From a virus: a stretch of 44,466 nucleotides of DNA. Position 1 is the stretch's first letter. Each line of letters begins with the position of its first letter. The position numbers and the translations under genes are program-made. The notes under the pieces are model-generated. The model did no database searches. It had not been told where the DNA came from and was given only the letters and a program-made list of their open reading frames with translations. The stretch is from IMG/VR virus record IMGVR_UViG_3300009551_000026, positions 1 to 44,466 of that record; one strand, given 5' to 3'. Below, one piece after another: positions 5,741-20,968 of the stretch.

Positions 5741-6061
5741 TCAGTCACGGCTATCCTCCTTGGTGAGAGCTTCATGCGTCCGATCGCGAGCCGCCTTTGC
5801 CTCGATCCACATCGAATGCATGTCGCCGTGGAGAGTGATCAGGTGGAAGTCGCTCCGTGCCTGGGTCAACGCCTCCCGCATCTCCCCCACCCGCGCGGAG
5901 GCGGCGTCCCGCTCCCCCTCCAACTCCGCAATCTTCGCGTGGAGGGCGTCGATGGCGTCGGCGGCTTCGTCCCCGTCCTGATTGCGACGGCGGCCCATAT
6001 CGATCGGCTTCCGCAGCCGCTCCACAAGCGCTCGCAACCCGCTGATTTCCACCGGCGTCAC
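5741..6061 (-). CDS. Coiled-coil protein, GTG start
   Basis: A 106-residue protein. GTG 6061 is chosen because GGAGG lies six bases upstream. Residues about 40-70 (IAELEGERDAASARVGEMREALTQAR) are a clear coiled coil preceded by a GRRRNQDGDEAADAIDAL segment. The layout resembles the small coiled-coil proteins frequent in phage early operons. Its promoter must lie in the 104-bp region shared with the rightward operon starting at 6166. Function unknown. Confidence 0.7.
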   Translation of the reverse strand: MTPVEISGLRALVERLRKPIDMGRRRNQDGDEAADAIDALHAKIAELEGERDAASARVGEMREALTQARSDFHLITLHGDMHSMWIEAKAARDRTHEALTKEDSRD

Positions 6062-6088
6062 AACGCACCTCCGCGATGAAAATAGCCC

Positions 6089-6116
6089 TTGCTTTCGTAC
6101 ACGAAAGGCGTACAAA
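6089..6116 (+). promoter_or_regulatory. Putative promoter with palindromic operator for the 6166-6944 operon
   Basis: CTTTCGT-AC-ACGAAAG at 6092-6107 is an inverted repeat with perfect 7-bp arms in the 104-bp region between divergent genes. A possible rightward promoter is TTGCTT (6089-6094), 16 bp, TACAAA (6111-6116), which would place the palindrome between -35 and -10. It is the natural binding site for the HTH protein at the end of the operon. The -35/-10 assignment is weak; the palindrome itself is clear. Confidence 0.5.
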
Positions 6117-6165
6117 CAATCTCAGCGGATGGAACAGCCAACCGCGATAGGTACGGAGACCTTAG

Positions 6166-6429
6166 ATGACCCATCCGCTGCTCGACCCGCACAGCTTCTC
6201 GCACTTCGGCGGGGATGTCAGCAAGGCGACCCAGGCGAAGTATGACGCTCGCAAGATCGAGAACGCCAAGAACCTCGCCGCATTTGAGGTTGGTATGCTG
6301 GTGAAGCCCTTCAAGGGCTACGATCGCAACATCGGCCCGAACGGACAGATGATCACCGCCATCAATGGTGATCATATCACGCTCTCGAACGGTCGCACCT
6401 ACGCCGCTGGCTTCCTCACGATCGCCTGA
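6166..6429 (+). CDS. Unknown 87-residue protein, first gene of HTH-ended operon (anti-CRISPR candidate)
   Basis: A small protein with an N-terminal helical half (KATQAKYDARKIENAKNLA) and a beta-rich C-terminal half resembling an SH3/KOW-like barrel (VGMLVKPFKGYDRN, ITAINGDHITLSNGRTY). GGAG precedes ATG 6166. It is transcribed against the flanking operons with two other short genes, the last coding for an HTH regulator. That layout is typical of acr-aca loci, but I see no similarity to a named anti-CRISPR. Function is inferred from context only. Confidence 0.75.
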   Translation: MTHPLLDPHSFSHFGGDVSKATQAKYDARKIENAKNLAAFEVGMLVKPFKGYDRNIGPNGQMITAINGDHITLSNGRTYAAGFLTIA

Positions 6430-6441
6430 AAGGATTCCGTG

Positions 6442-6621
6442 ATGACCTATTTTGAGCAACTCGCCTCGATCACCGCTGAAATCGTCCCGGTCCTGAAGCC
6501 CGAGTTCGACGCCGAGCGCTACGCCGCCGGGATGCTCGACGAGGCCGACGAGGACGAGACCAACTTCGAAGTTCGCGGCCTCCACACCAAGACCGGCGCT
6601 CCGCACGCCTTCTCGATCTGA
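6442..6621 (+). CDS. Unknown 59-residue acidic protein (anti-CRISPR candidate)
   Basis: An acidic protein with an N-terminal helix (MTYFEQLASITAEIV) and the motif MLDEADEDETNFEVRG, then a short strand region. ATG 6442 is chosen over GTG 6439 because AAAGGA is better placed. Strong negative charge and small size are common to DNA-mimic and anti-CRISPR proteins. It lies between the first gene and the HTH gene and overlaps the HTH start by one base (TGATG), so the two are co-translated. Function unproven. Confidence 0.7.
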   Translation: MTYFEQLASITAEIVPVLKPEFDAERYAAGMLDEADEDETNFEVRGLHTKTGAPHAFSI

Positions 6622-6944
6622 TGAAGACGCTCTACGCAGCTTGCATCGCACGCCTCGGGCTATCCCAGTCTGAGGCCGCTGATCTGCATGGCGTTCGCCA
6701 CGACACGGTGAAGTCGTGGTGCGCAGGCCGCCGCACGGTTCCAGACAACGCGTGGTCGGACCTGCGTGTATACGAGGCGCAGATCGTTGACCGCTCGGAA
6801 GCAATCCGCGAGGCATGGGAAGATGCTGGCGAGATCCGCGATATTGAAGCGACGGTTGCTGATCATGCTGGGCTGATGGCGCTCGCGGATTTCTTGCTGA
6901 GCACGGATGATGTGCCACCTGTGTCGGTGGAGCTGACGACCTGA
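6621..6944 (+). CDS. HTH regulator resembling YdiL/Aca2-type proteins
   Basis: A 107-residue protein. Residues about 13-42 (LGLSQSEAADLHGV, then DTVKSWCAGRRTVPDNAW) form a helix-turn-helix with the 'W-x-x-G-x-R-x-V-P' ending seen in YdiL/DUF1870 proteins and in the anti-CRISPR-associated repressor Aca2. The rest is helical and acidic and could dimerise. As the last gene of a short operon behind a palindrome it probably autoregulates the operon. Assignment to Aca2 itself is inference from fold and context. It converges with the methyltransferase gene, 12 bp away. Confidence 0.75.
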   Translation: MKTLYAACIARLGLSQSEAADLHGVRHDTVKSWCAGRRTVPDNAWSDLRVYEAQIVDRSEAIREAWEDAGEIRDIEATVADHAGLMALADFLLSTDDVPPVSVELTT

Positions 6945-6956
6945 TTTCGACCGCGT

Positions 6957-7688
6957 TCATGCCACGGCTCCAAAAAGCTGGCGTTGGCGCTGAGCGGCTT
7001 CGATGCGGCGGCAGGCGGCGTCGAAATAGATCGGCTCGCATTCGATGCCGATGAACGGATGTCCTGCCAGCACTGCCGCGATGCCGGTCGAGCCCGCACC
7101 CATGTAGGGATCAAGTATCAGCCCACCTTGAGGCACACGGGCCTGTGTGATGGTCCATGACATGAGATCGACGGGCTTCTGGGTCGGATGATGGCGAGGT
7201 ACTGCCGCCTGACCGACGCGCTCATTTCTCGTCTCGTATCCTCCAGCGATGCAAAGCCCATTCCACAGGTGGCGAAAAATACGGAGCGGGCGTTCGCGCT
7301 GATTGAGCCACGCAGCCTCACCATCGCCCTGAAGACGAACCATGCCGTTCGGTACTTTATCCCAGCACAGCCATGAACCTTCGGGGAGCCGATCTGCGAA
7401 CTTGTGGGCGCCCCAAAGCGCCACGATATCTGCCATCGACAAGAGCGGCGATGGATCGAACGGCTTGTCATCGCCTTGGATCGCCGGATACGCCCGATCA
7501 GTAGGATGATATTTGCCGCCTCCTGGAAGTTTGGAAATTCGGCGCTTGCCCATTTTGACCTTCAAGGCCTGACCATAAGGCGGGTCGCTGATAATCGCAG
7601 CCGGACGCGGCAGATCGTCCACCTCCTCCCATTCGGCGAGATAGAGCGTCGCATTGCCGATCTGCACAAACCTCTCCCCCGGCGTCAT
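6957..7688 (-). CDS. DNA adenine-N6 / cytosine-N4 methyltransferase
   Basis: A 243-residue protein of the N6_N4 methyltransferase class. The catalytic motif DPPY is at 35-38 and the AdoMet motif [10 protein letters not shown] at about 193-202, with [10 protein letters not shown] following. The order (catalytic motif first) is that of the beta group, which includes many solitary phage enzymes. No restriction endonuclease gene is beside it, so it is an orphan enzyme, probably protecting phage DNA. It is joined to the NADAR gene by an ATGA overlap and is the last gene of the early leftward operon. The target sequence cannot be read from here. Confidence 0.93.
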
Positions 7689-8218
7689 TGGGCTGACCTC
7701 GCGCGGAGGGTGGAGCGAACCTCCATCCAGAGCTTGCCGAGCATGTTCTGCCCGTCGCGGTTCGGACCCCAGCCCCAGAAGTCATCGCGCCAGCTATTTT
7801 CGACCAGTTCACGCTCGCCGGTCGCGAGGAGTTTGCGACGGACATATTCATGCTGATCGGCCTTCAGGCGCAGGATCTCCCGCATCTCGCCGACCTTGAT
7901 GTCGTCCCAATAATCGATCTGATGAACCTTGTTGCCCTGCGCAATCCGAAAGGCGTCATGCGCAGATGCCGCGTTCATGATCTTCTGAGCCAACGCATCG
8001 GCGGAGTAGCCTCCGGCGAGGAAGAAGCGGCGCCAGTGATACATGTGCTCGCTGGTCATGAAGGTGTATGGGCCCCAGCGCACGTTGAACGCCGAGAAAT
8101 TCGAGAGGACGTAGAAGTCCTGCTCATAGAAGCACACGCGCTCCGGTGTATCGAGGCCATGGCATTCGATGTCGGACATAGGGGTTTCCAATCCCACGAG
8201 GTTCTCGGACGGGGTCAT
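7685..8218 (-). CDS. NADAR domain protein (YbiA/DUF1768 family)
   Basis: A 177-residue protein matching the NADAR pattern: [15 protein letters not shown] near the start, [12 protein letters not shown] in the first third, and [18 protein letters not shown] with [10 protein letters not shown] at the end. The family includes the riboflavin-pathway N-glycosidase YbiA and enzymes that remove ADP-ribose from guanine in DNA, reversing DarT-type toxins. In a phage operon with a methyltransferase and nuclease genes, a counter-defence or NAD-related role is plausible. Start 8218 overlaps the upstream stop; ATG 8179 is an alternative that would lose 13 residues. Confidence 0.88.
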
Positions 8219-8550
8219 GCGGGCTGATCCTCTTCGCGATGACTGAAAAATACCGTCCGGTCGGGCGCCTGGATGGTGTAGCTGTCCTGATCCGCCTCGA
8301 TACGCAGCCGCTCCGCCAAGGTCTCAGCATGCTGCCAAAGCTCATCGGGCGTGAGGGGAAAGCGCGGGTAGTTAATCAACCCGACGATGTAGCCTTCCTC
8401 CTCGCCGTTCCGATAAATGAAGTTCGTCGGCGTGCAGGTGACGCAGAAGCCGATCTCATCGCAGTATGTGCGGCATTGATCCTCGATGTCAGCCGCGCGC
8501 CCGGCGATGAAGATGCTGATTGGGTAGCTGATAGCTTCGCGCCGGATCAT
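8215..8550 (-). CDS. Conserved-type hypothetical protein
   Basis: A 111-residue protein (MIRREAISYPISIFIAG start). It appears to be an alpha/beta fold: strand ISIFIAG, helix ADIEDQCRTYCDEI, strand FCVTCTP, then GYIVGLINYPRFP, helix and final strand. It has conserved-looking motifs (VGLINYPRFP, SYTIQAPDRTVFF) that I have seen in small phage proteins but cannot name. It lies between NADAR and PAPS-reductase-like genes with ATGA overlaps, so it may act with them. Confidence 0.75.
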   Translation of the reverse strand: MIRREAISYPISIFIAGRAADIEDQCRTYCDEIGFCVTCTPTNFIYRNGEEEGYIVGLINYPRFPLTPDELWQHAETLAERLRIEADQDSYTIQAPDRTVFFSHREEDQPA

Positions 8551-9464
8551 GCTGCTTCTCCGCACCAGGTGCCGCACTCAGCGTCCATCTCAGGATCGTT
8601 GTCGAACAGGCCGCCGGCGAACAGATCGGGCTGCGTGCGGACATCACGGATCAGTTCGGCATAGCTGTATTCGGTGACGAACTGCCCCTTACCGATGACC
8701 TCCATGTCCGCCCACCACTGCAGCGTGCCCGGCTTGGTGCGCTCAATCTCCCACAGCTTGGCCCGCGCCTTAAGCATGCAGCCATCGCAGTTGCCCTCGA
8801 AGCCGAAGAGGCCCAGATCGAAGCCTTGGGGGAGCAGCATAGCCAGGGCGTTGCCGCCGAGCGTCCGACAGGCCTCGACCACCTCGCTGATCGAAAGCTT
8901 ACCGAACCAGAAGCGGAACACGTCGCGCTGGCTGGCCTTTGCGTCATCCAGCGGCAGAACGTTGGTCCACGCCTCCTTGTTCGGCTTGCGTGATTTCGCG
9001 ACCCGGTGCTGCTCATCATGGCGCAGGCCGACGATGTTAACCCAGTTCTTATAGCCGCGCGCCTGCATGAACCACTTCATGACGCGCACCTTCAACTCGG
9101 CGGTGCACCAGCGCATGACTGCGTTCGGGGTATATTGCTTATCCCGGATCAGTGCCTCGAAAGGCTCACCAGCGCGGGATGCCGTCTCGAACGTCACTTC
9201 CTCGAAGCGCTCTTCGATCGGCCGCGAAACCTTGCGCGAACGGAATTCGACCCAGTGGATAGGCACGCCCCAGCGCGCCTGACACTCATGAACGAAGCGA
9301 AGGGTTTCCTCGCGCTCCTTGCCGGTGTTGGCAAAGACGACGTGAACGTCAGGCGGGAATGCGCCGCCATGCGCGTCCAGCATCATCTTGAGCATGTAGG
9401 CCGACGTGCGTCCGCCCGAGAAGCTGATCAGCGCCGGGCCCTGAATGAAATACGGGTTTGTCAC
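8547..9464 (-). CDS. PAPS reductase-like ATP pyrophosphatase (DndC/IbrA-like)
   Basis: A 305-residue protein from GTG 9464, chosen for GGGGAG seven bases upstream. It has the PP-loop SFSGGRTS at about 14-21, VVFANTGKEREET, RWCTAEL with LKVRVMKWF, VGLRHDEQHR, and a late cysteine pair CDGCMLKARAKL. This is the adenine-alpha-hydrolase fold of PAPS reductases, DndC (DNA phosphorothioation) and IbrA-type phage proteins. True sulfate reduction is unlikely without partner genes; sulfur insertion or another adenylation reaction is possible. The cysteine pair may bind a metal or Fe-S centre. It is in the same operon as the methyltransferase. Confidence 0.88.
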   Translation of the reverse strand: MTNPYFIQGPALISFSGGRTSAYMLKMMLDAHGGAFPPDVHVVFANTGKEREETLRFVHECQARWGVPIHWVEFRSRKVSRPIEERFEEVTFETASRAGEPFEALIRDKQYTPNAVMRWCTAELKVRVMKWFMQARGYKNWVNIVGLRHDEQHRVAKSRKPNKEAWTNVLPLDDAKASQRDVFRFWFGKLSISEVVEACRTLGGNALAMLLPQGFDLGLFGFEGNCDGCMLKARAKLWEIERTKPGTLQWWADMEVIGKGQFVTEYSYAELIRDVRTQPDLFAGGLFDNDPEMDAECGTWCGEAA

Positions 9465-9520
9465 CGCCCCGCTCCCCAAACCACGCCCGCCGCAACCGCC
9501 GGCACCAGGATCACGCTCAT
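9461..9520 (-). CDS. 19-residue hydrophobic micropeptide
   Basis: A short frame from ATG 9520 to TGA 9461 encodes MSVILVPAVAAGVVWGAGR. It starts in an ATGA overlap with the HNH gene and ends in a GTGA overlap with the PAPS-reductase-like gene, so it bridges two genes exactly. It may be a coupling peptide that carries ribosomes to the next start, or a tiny membrane peptide. There is no homology support at this length. Confidence 0.4.
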   Translation of the reverse strand: MSVILVPAVAAGVVWGAGR

Positions 9521-10050
9521 GGCTGCACCTGTTCGACCATCGCGACATAAGGCCCCGCACTCTTCTGATCGGCAAGAGACACAAGGGTTTCCTGCTTTTT
9601 CTTAATTCTATGGAGGCGAAAGTATTCTTTTCGCGATTTGTTATTGATTTTTTCGCGCTCTTTATGGCGCTTACGCGAACAGATTAGACATCTGCGCCGT
9701 TTCCCATTTTCCACTAACGTTAGTGGGTGGCCGCATGCCGCATGCGTCTTATTATGCAATGGATGCCTGCGCCGAGCGACCATGTCTGCTGAATTGTCCG
9801 CAGCAGAGCCGATGCGTAAATGCGCCGGATTGACGCATGCAGGATTATCGCAGGAATGTAGGGCGAGTTCATAGCCTTCCATGCGGCCATGATGGGCAAT
9901 GCAACTTACCCGATGCGCATATCGAGAGAGCCCATCGATCCAGTAAGTTCCATATCCTTTATGGTTGCGATACCCTTTCCACTCCCAGCAATCATCGGGG
10001 CCGCGCTTATCGACTTTGGCCCAAAAGCGCCCATCAAGAACATAGGTCAT
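9517..10050 (-). CDS. HNH endonuclease (HNH_3 type)
   Basis: A 177-residue protein from ATG 10050 (MTYVLDGRFW), in an ATGA overlap with the upstream gene. It has DDCWEWKGYRNHKGYG near the start and the nuclease core AHRVSCIAHHG, then LHSCDNPACVNPAHLRIG, the His-Asn-His metal site typical of phage HNH_3 enzymes. The C-terminus is very basic with a second Cys set (ACGHP, RCLIC) that may bind zinc. The 3' part is clearly lower in GC than its neighbours, which suggests recent acquisition as a mobile (homing-type) endonuclease. Confidence 0.9.
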   Translation of the reverse strand: MTYVLDGRFWAKVDKRGPDDCWEWKGYRNHKGYGTYWIDGLSRYAHRVSCIAHHGRMEGYELALHSCDNPACVNPAHLRIGSAADNSADMVARRRHPLHNKTHAACGHPLTLVENGKRRRCLICSRKRHKEREKINNKSRKEYFRLHRIKKKQETLVSLADQKSAGPYVAMVEQVQP

Positions 10051-10229
10051 TGCGACACCAATCCCCAAACGAGGAGAAGTCCGAGACCCAGGCCGCAGAT
10101 TAGGTACTGCCAGAGCGGCGTCGTGCGCGGGCCGTATAGAGGCTCGATGGGCATCTTCTGATGCTCGCGCTCGGTCTGCGTGCGGCGGACGTGATCGGCC
10201 CAGCCGAAATGGTGGGGATGGTGGAACAT
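10047..10229 (-). CDS. Small protein with C-terminal membrane anchor
   Basis: A 60-residue protein with a His-rich N-terminus (MFHHPHHFGWADHVRRT) and one predicted membrane segment near the C-terminus (LWQYLICGLGLGLLLVW). Expected topology is tail-anchored. It abuts the exonuclease gene (shared base 10229) and overlaps the HNH start by ATGA. Function unknown. Confidence 0.7.
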   Translation of the reverse strand: MFHHPHHFGWADHVRRTQTEREHQKMPIEPLYGPRTTPLWQYLICGLGLGLLLVWGLVSQ

Positions 10230-10774
10230 CAGGCGAAGTCCTCCTCACGGAAGCCGGTTCTGATTTCCCATTCCGGGCGATCGTCAGAATCCTCGCTGAT
10301 GGGGCAATCCGTGCCTTGGCAGGTCTCCATCAAGAGGTGGCGAAGAGCCTGGGCGTCCCACCATGCGTTGTGCTGGACGGCGCCTTCCAAGGTCGTCGGA
10401 TAGCAATCGACGTTGTGCACTTCGAAGCCTATCGCCGGGTAATCCGTGGAGACCCACTCGCCGTCTGGACTTGTCGAGAGGACGGTGCAGAATCGCCCGA
10501 TATCGACAGGGCTATCGGCGATGATGATGGGATGCTGGTCGCTTCCAACGAAATCGCGCAGCAGGCTTCCCCAATCGTTGACGTAAGCAACTGTGTGACC
10601 GACTGGCAATTGGATGTGCACCAGCGGCCAGACGTTCATCAGAACCCACGACGACAGATCCTCAGGCTTGTCCGCGATGCACAGGTAGATGGATCTGCCA
10701 TCCTCGCGGATCAGCGCCATGCTCAAAAGCTGGCCGCCGTGTCCATTGAACTCGCAGTCGATGAAGTAGCGCAT
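10229..10774 (-). CDS. DEDDh 3'-5' exonuclease-like protein
   Basis: A 181-residue protein starting MRYFIDCEFNG at ATG 10774. It shows the exonuclease motifs: Asp-x-Glu in FIDCEF, an Asp in IADSPVDIGRF, and HNAWWDAQALRHL, where His and Asp fit the ExoIII H-x(4)-D pattern. The short form resembles the Rv2179c-type 3'-5' exoribonuclease group. It could trim RNA or DNA ends during early infection. Its start shares one base with the upstream stop (TGATG). Confidence 0.82.
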   Translation of the reverse strand: MRYFIDCEFNGHGGQLLSMALIREDGRSIYLCIADKPEDLSSWVLMNVWPLVHIQLPVGHTVAYVNDWGSLLRDFVGSDQHPIIIADSPVDIGRFCTVLSTSPDGEWVSTDYPAIGFEVHNVDCYPTTLEGAVQHNAWWDAQALRHLLMETCQGTDCPISEDSDDRPEWEIRTGFREEDFA

Positions 10775-20605: not shown

Positions 20606-20968
20606 ATGGCGCGCCCGACCAAGTATGATCCAGCCTATTGCGAGCAGCTTGTTGCCCACATGGCAGAGGGGGCGAGCGTCACCTCGTTTGCTGCCGAAAT
20701 CGATGTAGCGCGCTCAACGATCAACGAATGGGCAGATAATCACCCCGAGTTTTCGGAAGCGCTATCGCGGGGCAAGGCGAAATGCTTGTCTTGGTGGGAG
20801 AAAGCGGCGCGCTCGACGGCCCTTGATGGCAAGGGTAATGCCACCGTCATCACGTTCGGCCTGAAGAACATGGGCAAGGATGAGTGGCAGGAAAAGCAAC
20901 TTATCGGTTCCGATCCTGACGCACCGCTCCCCGGTCTCGTTGTCCATTTCGCAAAGACCGGCGAATGA
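20606..20968 (+). CDS. terS: Terminase small subunit
   Basis: A 120-residue protein starting MARPTKYDPAYCEQLVAHM. It has an HTH motif (VTSFAAEIDVARSTINEW) followed by HPEFSEALSRGKAKCLSWWEKAARS and a region that often precedes terminase (GLKNMGKDEWQEK). It binds the packaging site on phage DNA and presents it to the large subunit. It overlaps the large subunit gene by four bases (ATGA). Confidence 0.88.
   Translation: MARPTKYDPAYCEQLVAHMAEGASVTSFAAEIDVARSTINEWADNHPEFSEALSRGKAKCLSWWEKAARSTALDGKGNATVITFGLKNMGKDEWQEKQLIGSDPDAPLPGLVVHFAKTGE

Follow-up and report, generated by a model that had tools for sequence, protein, structure and literature searches.

Two groups of lyases are the closest described counterparts of U111, a protein of 111 residues encoded beside a PP-loop ATPase in an IMG/VR virus record of 44,466 bases (IMGVR_UViG_3300009551_000026; the whole stretch is called the window here). 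Both genes lie in the segment analyzed, positions 6957-10050 on the minus strand, within an island that also holds genes for a DNA methyltransferase, a NADAR protein and an HNH endonuclease. The S-adenosylmethionine (SAM) lyases Svi3-3 (Protein Data Bank (PDB) 6ZNB, 6ZM9) and T3 SAMase share with U111 a predicted fold covering 106 of its 111 residues and, apparently, the Gln of the B-loop; for the Glu that ends their strand 2-3 loop, most U111 proteins have a candidate. Unlike them, U111 has a much shorter loop and frequently a PP-loop gene as its neighbor; sequence identity is 14%, and its profile matches neither T3 SAMase nor PDB sequences. The C. botulinum type III CRISPR SAM-AMP lyase and the phage protein AcrIIIB4 (9GAB, 9GAD) likewise resemble U111 in predicted fold and in a Glu-Gln spacing of 37 residues, but the lyase is tied to CorA/Cas10 signaling, whereas U111, with its shorter loop, is tied to PP-loop genes.

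For the ATPase, the nearest described systems are the phosphorothioation sulfurtransferases SspD, DndC and BrxP, with which it shares the PP-loop and the CT..LK and C-x2-C motifs. It differs from them in having U111 as neighbor and in not being a DndC orthologue, and a PADLOC scan of 15 proteins of the window revealed no further Dnd or Ssp gene. Another counterpart, PptA (PDB 21fy) from Vibrio phage vB_VhaP_VH-5, belongs to the same family as one group of U111-adjacent PP-loop proteins (subfamily 0), although VH-5 has no U111 match and the subfamily of the window (subfamily 1) is only a distant relative.

Recurrent pairing of U111 and PP-loop genes

U111 and the PP-loop ATPase form a real, recurrent two-gene module within the island. 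Searches with hidden Markov models (HMMs) revealed a PP-loop open reading frame (ORF) within 600 bp of U111 in 46 of 74 loci and within 150 bp in 40; 39 of the 46 lie upstream, six downstream on the same strand and one on the opposite strand. In one further locus (L179) a PP-loop frame directly behind U111, the seventh downstream case, was missed by the rule, so that 47 of 74 is the better total. The two genes overlap by 4 bp, as in the window, in 24 loci. The loci derive from 154 confirmed viral loci, of which the best 80 were used, and from 11 genome loci, found with a U111 profile and one conserved peptide as selector; three of these 91 were dropped on the ORF rule (L104, with an in-frame stop, L170 and L173), and the other 88 collapsed to 74 at 90% identity. 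By eye, L170 shows a PP-loop-like start just downstream of U111 and L173 shows none.

The PP-loop neighbors are of several unlike kinds, resembling PAPS (3'-phosphoadenosine 5'-phosphosulfate) reductase, SspD and DndC. The count of 46 of 74 is partly circular, as the HMMs behind it were built from neighbors chosen by eye; the models of Pfam, PHROG and PADLOC are independent, and they matched 25 (PF01507, E up to 0.01), 36 (phrog_424) and 32 (PADLOC SspD) of 73 ORFs upstream of U111, with PF01507 at the same threshold in four of 66 downstream ORFs. As a base rate, three PP-loop ORFs were found in 70 NADAR loci with a total of 733,924 bp. Anywhere in the record, PF01507 was matched in 23 of 66 distinct U111 records (two pooled scans, one holding PP-loop-positive records only, 22/40 positive, and L131 in both) versus five of 50 NADAR records, a control drawn from 50 of the 70 loci (10 left out as near-duplicates or short) that gives a base rate rather than a matched comparison, since NADAR phages are of other kinds. 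No third gene recurs beside the pair among the 28 largest neighbor clusters; across the PP-loop-positive loci, the only families that recurred in this clustering were PP-loop genes, their antisense frames and a few integrase-like genes. Neither phrog_4848, the family of U111, nor the pair was found described in the literature searched (without preprints and most subscription papers).

The surroundings of U111 vary. Pairs near integrase-like ORFs, recognized by eye, are seen in L005, L079, L111 and L175, perhaps near a prophage end. A Planctomycetota contig (L182:3323-5878) lines up three ORFs: one resembling a DNA methyltransferase, U111 and, downstream of it, a PP-loop ORF. In one group of phage contigs lacking a PP-loop gene (L113, L121, L128, L156 and similar loci), U111 often follows a protein of the "DNA polymerase" family phrog_11778 (six of 73 upstream ORFs) and precedes a peptide deformylase (seven of 66 downstream ORFs). 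In RHEph10 (L089:4341-5324) it follows an annotated deoxynucleoside monophosphate (dNMP) phosphatase, with a similar arrangement in L130, L133, L147 and L171; phrog_8467, of this phosphatase kind, occurs in four of 73 upstream ORFs and hints at a nucleotide-pool context.

Predicted structures of U111 and the PP-loop ATPase

U111 has no Pfam match up to E 1 and belongs to phrog_4848 (8.4e-35), for which PHROGs assigns no function; relatives occur in 172 of 50,697 phage records. Its AlphaFold model (predicted local distance difference test, pLDDT, 96.5) shows the order beta-alpha-beta-beta-alpha-beta-beta. Foldseek connected the model with 6ZM9 (E 1.2e-5), and structure comparison placed it closest to the phage SAM lyase 6ZNB (Z 13.2, root-mean-square deviation 2.4), followed by the SAM-AMP lyase 9GAB (Z 10.3 over 97 residues) and a further SAM lyase, 9LQE (10.1), whereas PII and a designed protein came next (Z 8.3). 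The comparisons cover the Foldseek-ranked entries, and absences from those lists carry no weight. U111 is thus predicted to have a PII-like ferredoxin fold nearest to SAM lyases, and on the strength of this model it is likely to bind an adenosyl ligand.

In the available part of PMC12255297, E69/E71 at the end of the strand 2-3 loop and Q104/Q108 in the B-loop are given as ligand-contact residues structurally conserved between SAM and SAM-AMP lyases, and a change of the Glu lowers the activity of Svi3-3 1,500- to 4,500-fold (PMC7877911 and PMC12255297, each as far as accessible). The candidate counterparts in U111 are Gln88, in the interval between helix 2 and strand 4, which is invariant in 72 of 72 U111 proteins, and Glu51, present in 65 of 72 including that of the window. 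The Glu-Gln spacing is 37 in U111 and in the SAM-AMP lyase and 35 in Svi3-3. With equivalence judged by secondary structure, position and spacing rather than by residue-level superposition, the two residues common to both lyase types appear to be kept in U111, the Glu not in every protein. The strand 2-3 loop itself is very short in U111 compared with the 10-12 residues seen in both lyases, according to the accessible text on those enzymes. Another feature is the run LINYPRFP, invariant in all 72 proteins except for its Asn (70 of 72).

A direct relationship in sequence between U111 and T3 SAMase was considered and rejected: hhalign gave no match, and the U111 profile yielded chance matches only in PDB sequences. 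No natural fusion of U111 with a PP-loop protein occurs among 105 U111-matching ORFs. Two contigs of archaeal metagenome-assembled genomes carry distant relatives (L178:3226-3558 and L181:2739-3071; 44% and 40% identity over the matched segment), each followed by what looks by eye like ribosomal protein S10 (Pfam S10 in two of 66 downstream ORFs); these relatives are perhaps a cellular protein and not phage cargo.

The partner of U111 in the window was assigned by Pfam to PAPS_reduct (PF01507, 6.3e-9) and has the motifs listed in Table 1. Five cysteines (C61, C120, C226, C229 and C297) are invariant in 15 relatives, which suggests an iron-sulfur site. Its model (pLDDT 85.9, with the final 23 residues below 50) matches APS (adenosine 5'-phosphosulfate)/PAPS reductases (2GOY, Z 12.8 over 181 residues) and, at lower scores, LarE and other PP-loop enzymes. 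The best PADLOC match is SspD (1.5e-15), in agreement with the preliminary description, which had named a PAPS-reductase-like PP-loop ATPase and pointed to PP-loop enzymes of the DndC type in sulfur modification. At 12.6 bits against a cut-off of 290.4 for the NCBIfam DndC equivalog TIGR03183, it is no orthologue of DndC itself. Relatives were matched in 390 of 50,697 phage records.

One chain of PDB 21fy, under the name PptA, is related to subfamily 0 (E 1.2e-45 with the protein of locus L111), and over 216 residues it shows no difference from a gene product of vB_VhaP_VH-5. The same entry contains E. coli IscS, which had been guessed beforehand from the sulfur role, so a phage PP-loop protein of the PptA kind has been studied together with a cysteine desulfurase; a paper on phage PptA was not found in the literature searched. 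DndC has been claimed to bind SAM, a property called unprecedented for PP-loop enzymes (PMC10853773, in the part available), which makes a partner with a SAM-lyase fold at most suggestive. In the accessible portions of two rhizobial phage genome papers, DndC/SspD-like or phrog_424 genes are listed as candidate defense or anti-defense genes, untested there (PMC12429752, PMC13299392). In Pseudoalteromonas phage PHS3 (L189:1982-3343), a PP-loop gene of the subfamily 0 type follows an annotated "putative DNA base-flipping protein".

Partner exchange and possible mechanism

Across the loci, U111 stays in place and the PP-loop gene beside it changes between distant types. For 75 U111 proteins, a tree from 114 columns (open at 24 of its 72 inner branches) was labeled with 12 combinations of PP-loop subfamily and side, and the scatter among PP-loop types on it is near that of shuffled labels. 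The 15 rows with subfamily 0 upstream take 14 changes, with 312 of 500 shuffles as low, and the eight rows with subfamily 1 upstream take eight (500 of 500); the exception is subfamily 5 downstream, with two changes for three rows (13 of 500). The nearest U111 to that of the window, in L093, is 75% identical, yet its PP-loop protein is of a different subfamily; tblastn with the window's PP-loop protein gave no match in L093, L095, L096 and L097 and a match in L094. The scattered subfamilies and the mismatch in L093 together indicate that partners have been swapped.

We tentatively favor, at somewhat less than even confidence, a reading in which IscS supplies sulfur to the PP-loop protein, a sulfurtransferase, U111 binds an adenosyl ligand as its partner, and the pair probably works on nucleic acid. 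By analogy with its SspD/DndC relatives and with 21fy, the PP-loop ATPase would most likely obtain its sulfur from IscS, the cysteine desulfurase of the host, and, in the manner of SspD and DndC, spend ATP on activating a nucleic acid phosphate or base so that sulfur can be inserted. U111 would most likely be a trimeric PII-type protein with the fold of SAM lyases; it would bind, and might also cleave, an adenosyl ligand, for which SAM, SAM-AMP or an adenylated intermediate are candidates, and would be the partner shared by many types of PP-loop protein. The choice of target would fall to the PP-loop subunit, and its frequent exchange may reflect a specificity subunit under pressure from host defenses, as expected in such conflicts. 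NADAR, methyltransferase and HNH are separate cargo of the same operon. A bolder version, speculative and rather improbable, sees in the pair an undescribed IscS-fed phage machine for sulfur modification of nucleic acid, in which U111 would be the constant core performing or gating the adenosyl-ligand step, some nine PP-loop subfamilies would be exchanged specificity subunits, and the type of modification would change to escape host defenses that read phosphorothioates or methylation.

Several observations weigh against the sulfurtransferase reading. The pairing is one-sided: 27 of 74 U111 loci lack a PP-loop gene (28 by the original rule), and 25 of the 27 records of seemingly negative loci, some of them fragments, have no PF01507 match anywhere, the two exceptions being a weak match in the record of L158 and an overlooked adjacent gene of L131. 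U111 can therefore exist without a PP-loop gene of its own. These 27 records include named phages of lytic type (Schitoviridae, PAK_P1, KB57 and Rhizobium phages) and contigs of 8 to 341 kb. Conversely, all 13 PP-loop records found by other routes lack U111, four of them in a repeated search as well, and the same search recovered U111 in eight of eight known records. Swapping is also not free, since all labels together need 35 changes on the tree against a shuffled mean of 44.4 (0 of 200 shuffles as low); most of this clustering stems from having versus lacking a PP-loop gene, for which 11 changes stand against 22.3 in shuffles. As to function, Glu51 is absent in seven of 72 proteins, of which five have Glu50 instead and two (L105 and L176) have no acid at either position, and the matching change in T3 SAMase (E68Q) retains 20-30% of activity, as stated in the available text of PMC7877911 and PMC12255297. 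U111 has no sequence-level link to SAM lyases by hhalign or by its profile in PDB sequences, PADLOC detected no Dnd, Ssp (DndD/E, SspB/C) or BREX partner gene in its scan of 15 proteins of the window, 10 being products of flanking or upstream genes, and subfamily 1 is related to PptA only at E 0.0018.

The alternative that survives best, although we consider it unlikely, is that U111 is a plain counter-defense lyase, directed as a SAM lyase against restriction-modification or BREX, or as a SAM-AMP lyase against type III CRISPR, and that the PP-loop gene is a functionally unrelated counter-defense co-traveler. The predicted fold, the mostly kept Glu and Gln, and the many U111 genes without a PP-loop gene agree with it, and in the accessible parts of PMC7877911 and PMC12255297 phage SAM lyases are described as acting against BREX as well as restriction-modification, and an anti-CRISPR role is proposed for a SAM-AMP lyase from a phage. 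However, the linkage is tight and specific, on either side of U111 and often with the 4-bp overlap, and no other family recurs apart from a few integrase-like genes; the very short strand 2-3 loop also sets U111 apart from both lyases. An aggressive SAM lyase would, moreover, starve the methyltransferase of the same operon, a conflict that favors a different ligand, a function as sensor or an activity confined to a complex.

Such a sensor role is the second alternative: U111 would be a non-catalytic PII-like sensor of ATP, ADP, SAM or a defense signal that switches the PP-loop enzyme on or off, its likeness to SAM lyases reflecting shared ancestry only. PII proteins do stand among the next structural matches, Glu51 is not universal, and the LINYPRFP run may be a partner-binding surface; but the SAM-lyase match lies well above PII (Z 13.2 versus 8.3) and Gln88 is invariant, and we regard the sensor as improbable. 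That the five genes form a single functional island for protecting DNA or modifying bases, as the common operon and overlapping gene ends might suggest, is very improbable indeed, given that tblastn at 1e-4 found relatives of the window's NADAR in none, of its methyltransferase in two and of its HNH gene in two of the 74 U111 loci (and PP-loop genes of its own subfamily in seven), that 70 IMG/VR NADAR loci held its methyltransferase in two, its HNH gene in one, its PP-loop gene in one and U111 in none, and that blastn found no phage record covering 80% of positions 6957-10050.

The operon and its accessory genes

The five-gene set is not conserved as a whole: the island is real, but it is mostly a string of independent accessory genes. 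The preliminary description had suggested that the ATPase, NADAR and U111 might form one pathway and had proposed their co-occurrence across phages as a check. The recurrent ATPase/U111 pair upholds one half of this suggestion, whereas the counts given above do not support NADAR as a third member. The same description had seen five genes and a micropeptide as one unit joined by ATGA or GTGA overlaps. Six minus-strand ORFs indeed overlap by 4 bp at every junction from the methyltransferase through the HNH gene (Table 1), but the overlapping junctions extend upstream of HNH (10047/10050, 10229, 10774, up to about 11,109), so that the six ORFs are the downstream end of a longer leftward operon and not a separate unit. 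At 6957, the operon end faces three adjacent small plus-strand ORFs in converging orientation (6166-6944; 87, 60 and 107 residues), the last of which has a weak helix-turn-helix match. An integrase-like gene (162-1409) and a terminase-like gene (at 20,965), both assigned by eye from the sequence, indicate that the window probably derives from a temperate phage.

Table 1. Features at the downstream end of the leftward operon.
Feature	Position	Strand	Remarks
U111	8215..8550	-	111 aa, phrog_4848; predicted SAM-lyase (PII-like) fold; candidate active-site Glu51 and Gln88
PP-loop ATPase	8547..9464	-	PAPS reductase/SspD type; GTG start; FSGGRTS loop, CTAELK and CDGC cysteine motifs; overlaps U111 by 4 bp
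19-aa ORF	9461..9520	-	Between HNH and PP-loop genes; putative coding; may serve translational coupling only
NADAR	7685..8218	-	YbiA type; independent cargo
DNA methyltransferase	6957..7688	-	Solitary, beta-group, DPPY motif; independent cargo
HNH endonuclease	9517..10050	-	Phage type; independent cargo
60-aa ORF	10047..10229	-	Directly upstream of HNH, 4-bp overlap; operon continues through here
181-aa protein	10229..10774	-	phrog_2259 (RNase H) match; upstream in same operon as HNH

The methyltransferase (Pfam N6_N4_Mtase, 1.2e-14) shows DPPY followed by a ten-residue motif, i.e., motif IV ahead of motif I, an order which we take to be that of the beta group. It has no cognate nuclease, and the earlier view of a solitary beta-group enzyme holds. 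The HNH gene (HNH_3, 1.8e-7) matches phage HNH families only and no PADLOC model, on which ground the two were rejected as a restriction-modification pair.

The NADAR protein had likewise been named correctly (PF08719, 5.7e-27) and belongs with the NADAR/YbiA family, which includes E. coli YbiA (2B3W), DarT1-linked NADARs and phage gp30.3. It aligns with YbiA at 3.5e-16, with WMEVR in place of LMELR and a Glu in the last strand, and it scores above the cut-off of the NCBIfam riboflavin-intermediate N-glycosidase family (86.4 versus 73.7) and below that of the "NADAR family anti-phage protein" (57.2 versus 240), so that a role in opposing DarT is possible. No ADP-ribosyltransferase Pfam match was found among 10 neighboring proteins, as a DarT-NADAR pair would have required. 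Orphan phage NADARs are reported to counter DarTG1, in a report of 2025. According to the available text of PMC11125620 and PMC11543638, the last-strand Glu separates YbiA members from His-type phage gp30.3 proteins, and various NADARs strip ADP-ribose off guanine in vitro, although this activity alone gave no protection from DarT1 in cells. The methyltransferase and NADAR fit ordinary orphan counter-defense or metabolic genes. Another phage contig (L017) carries two NADAR genes (281-769 and 6001-6471) within about 6 kb.

PAPS-reductase-like genes are common in phages and are often labeled NinC or auxiliary metabolic genes, and a tested role for them was not found in the literature; in the portion available of a paper on an Erythrobacter phage from 2017, it is stated that no study had tied such genes to phage metabolism (PMC5463345). 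What is new here is a module linking a sulfurtransferase-type ATPase to a protein of predicted SAM-lyase fold, of which we found no earlier description. A recurrent small partner with a recognizable enzyme fold offers a handle on these phage genes, and the fold assignment places the relatives of U111 in a testable biochemical class. If sulfur is moved onto nucleic acid by this module, phages would have their own counterpart of the phosphorothioation systems of their hosts.

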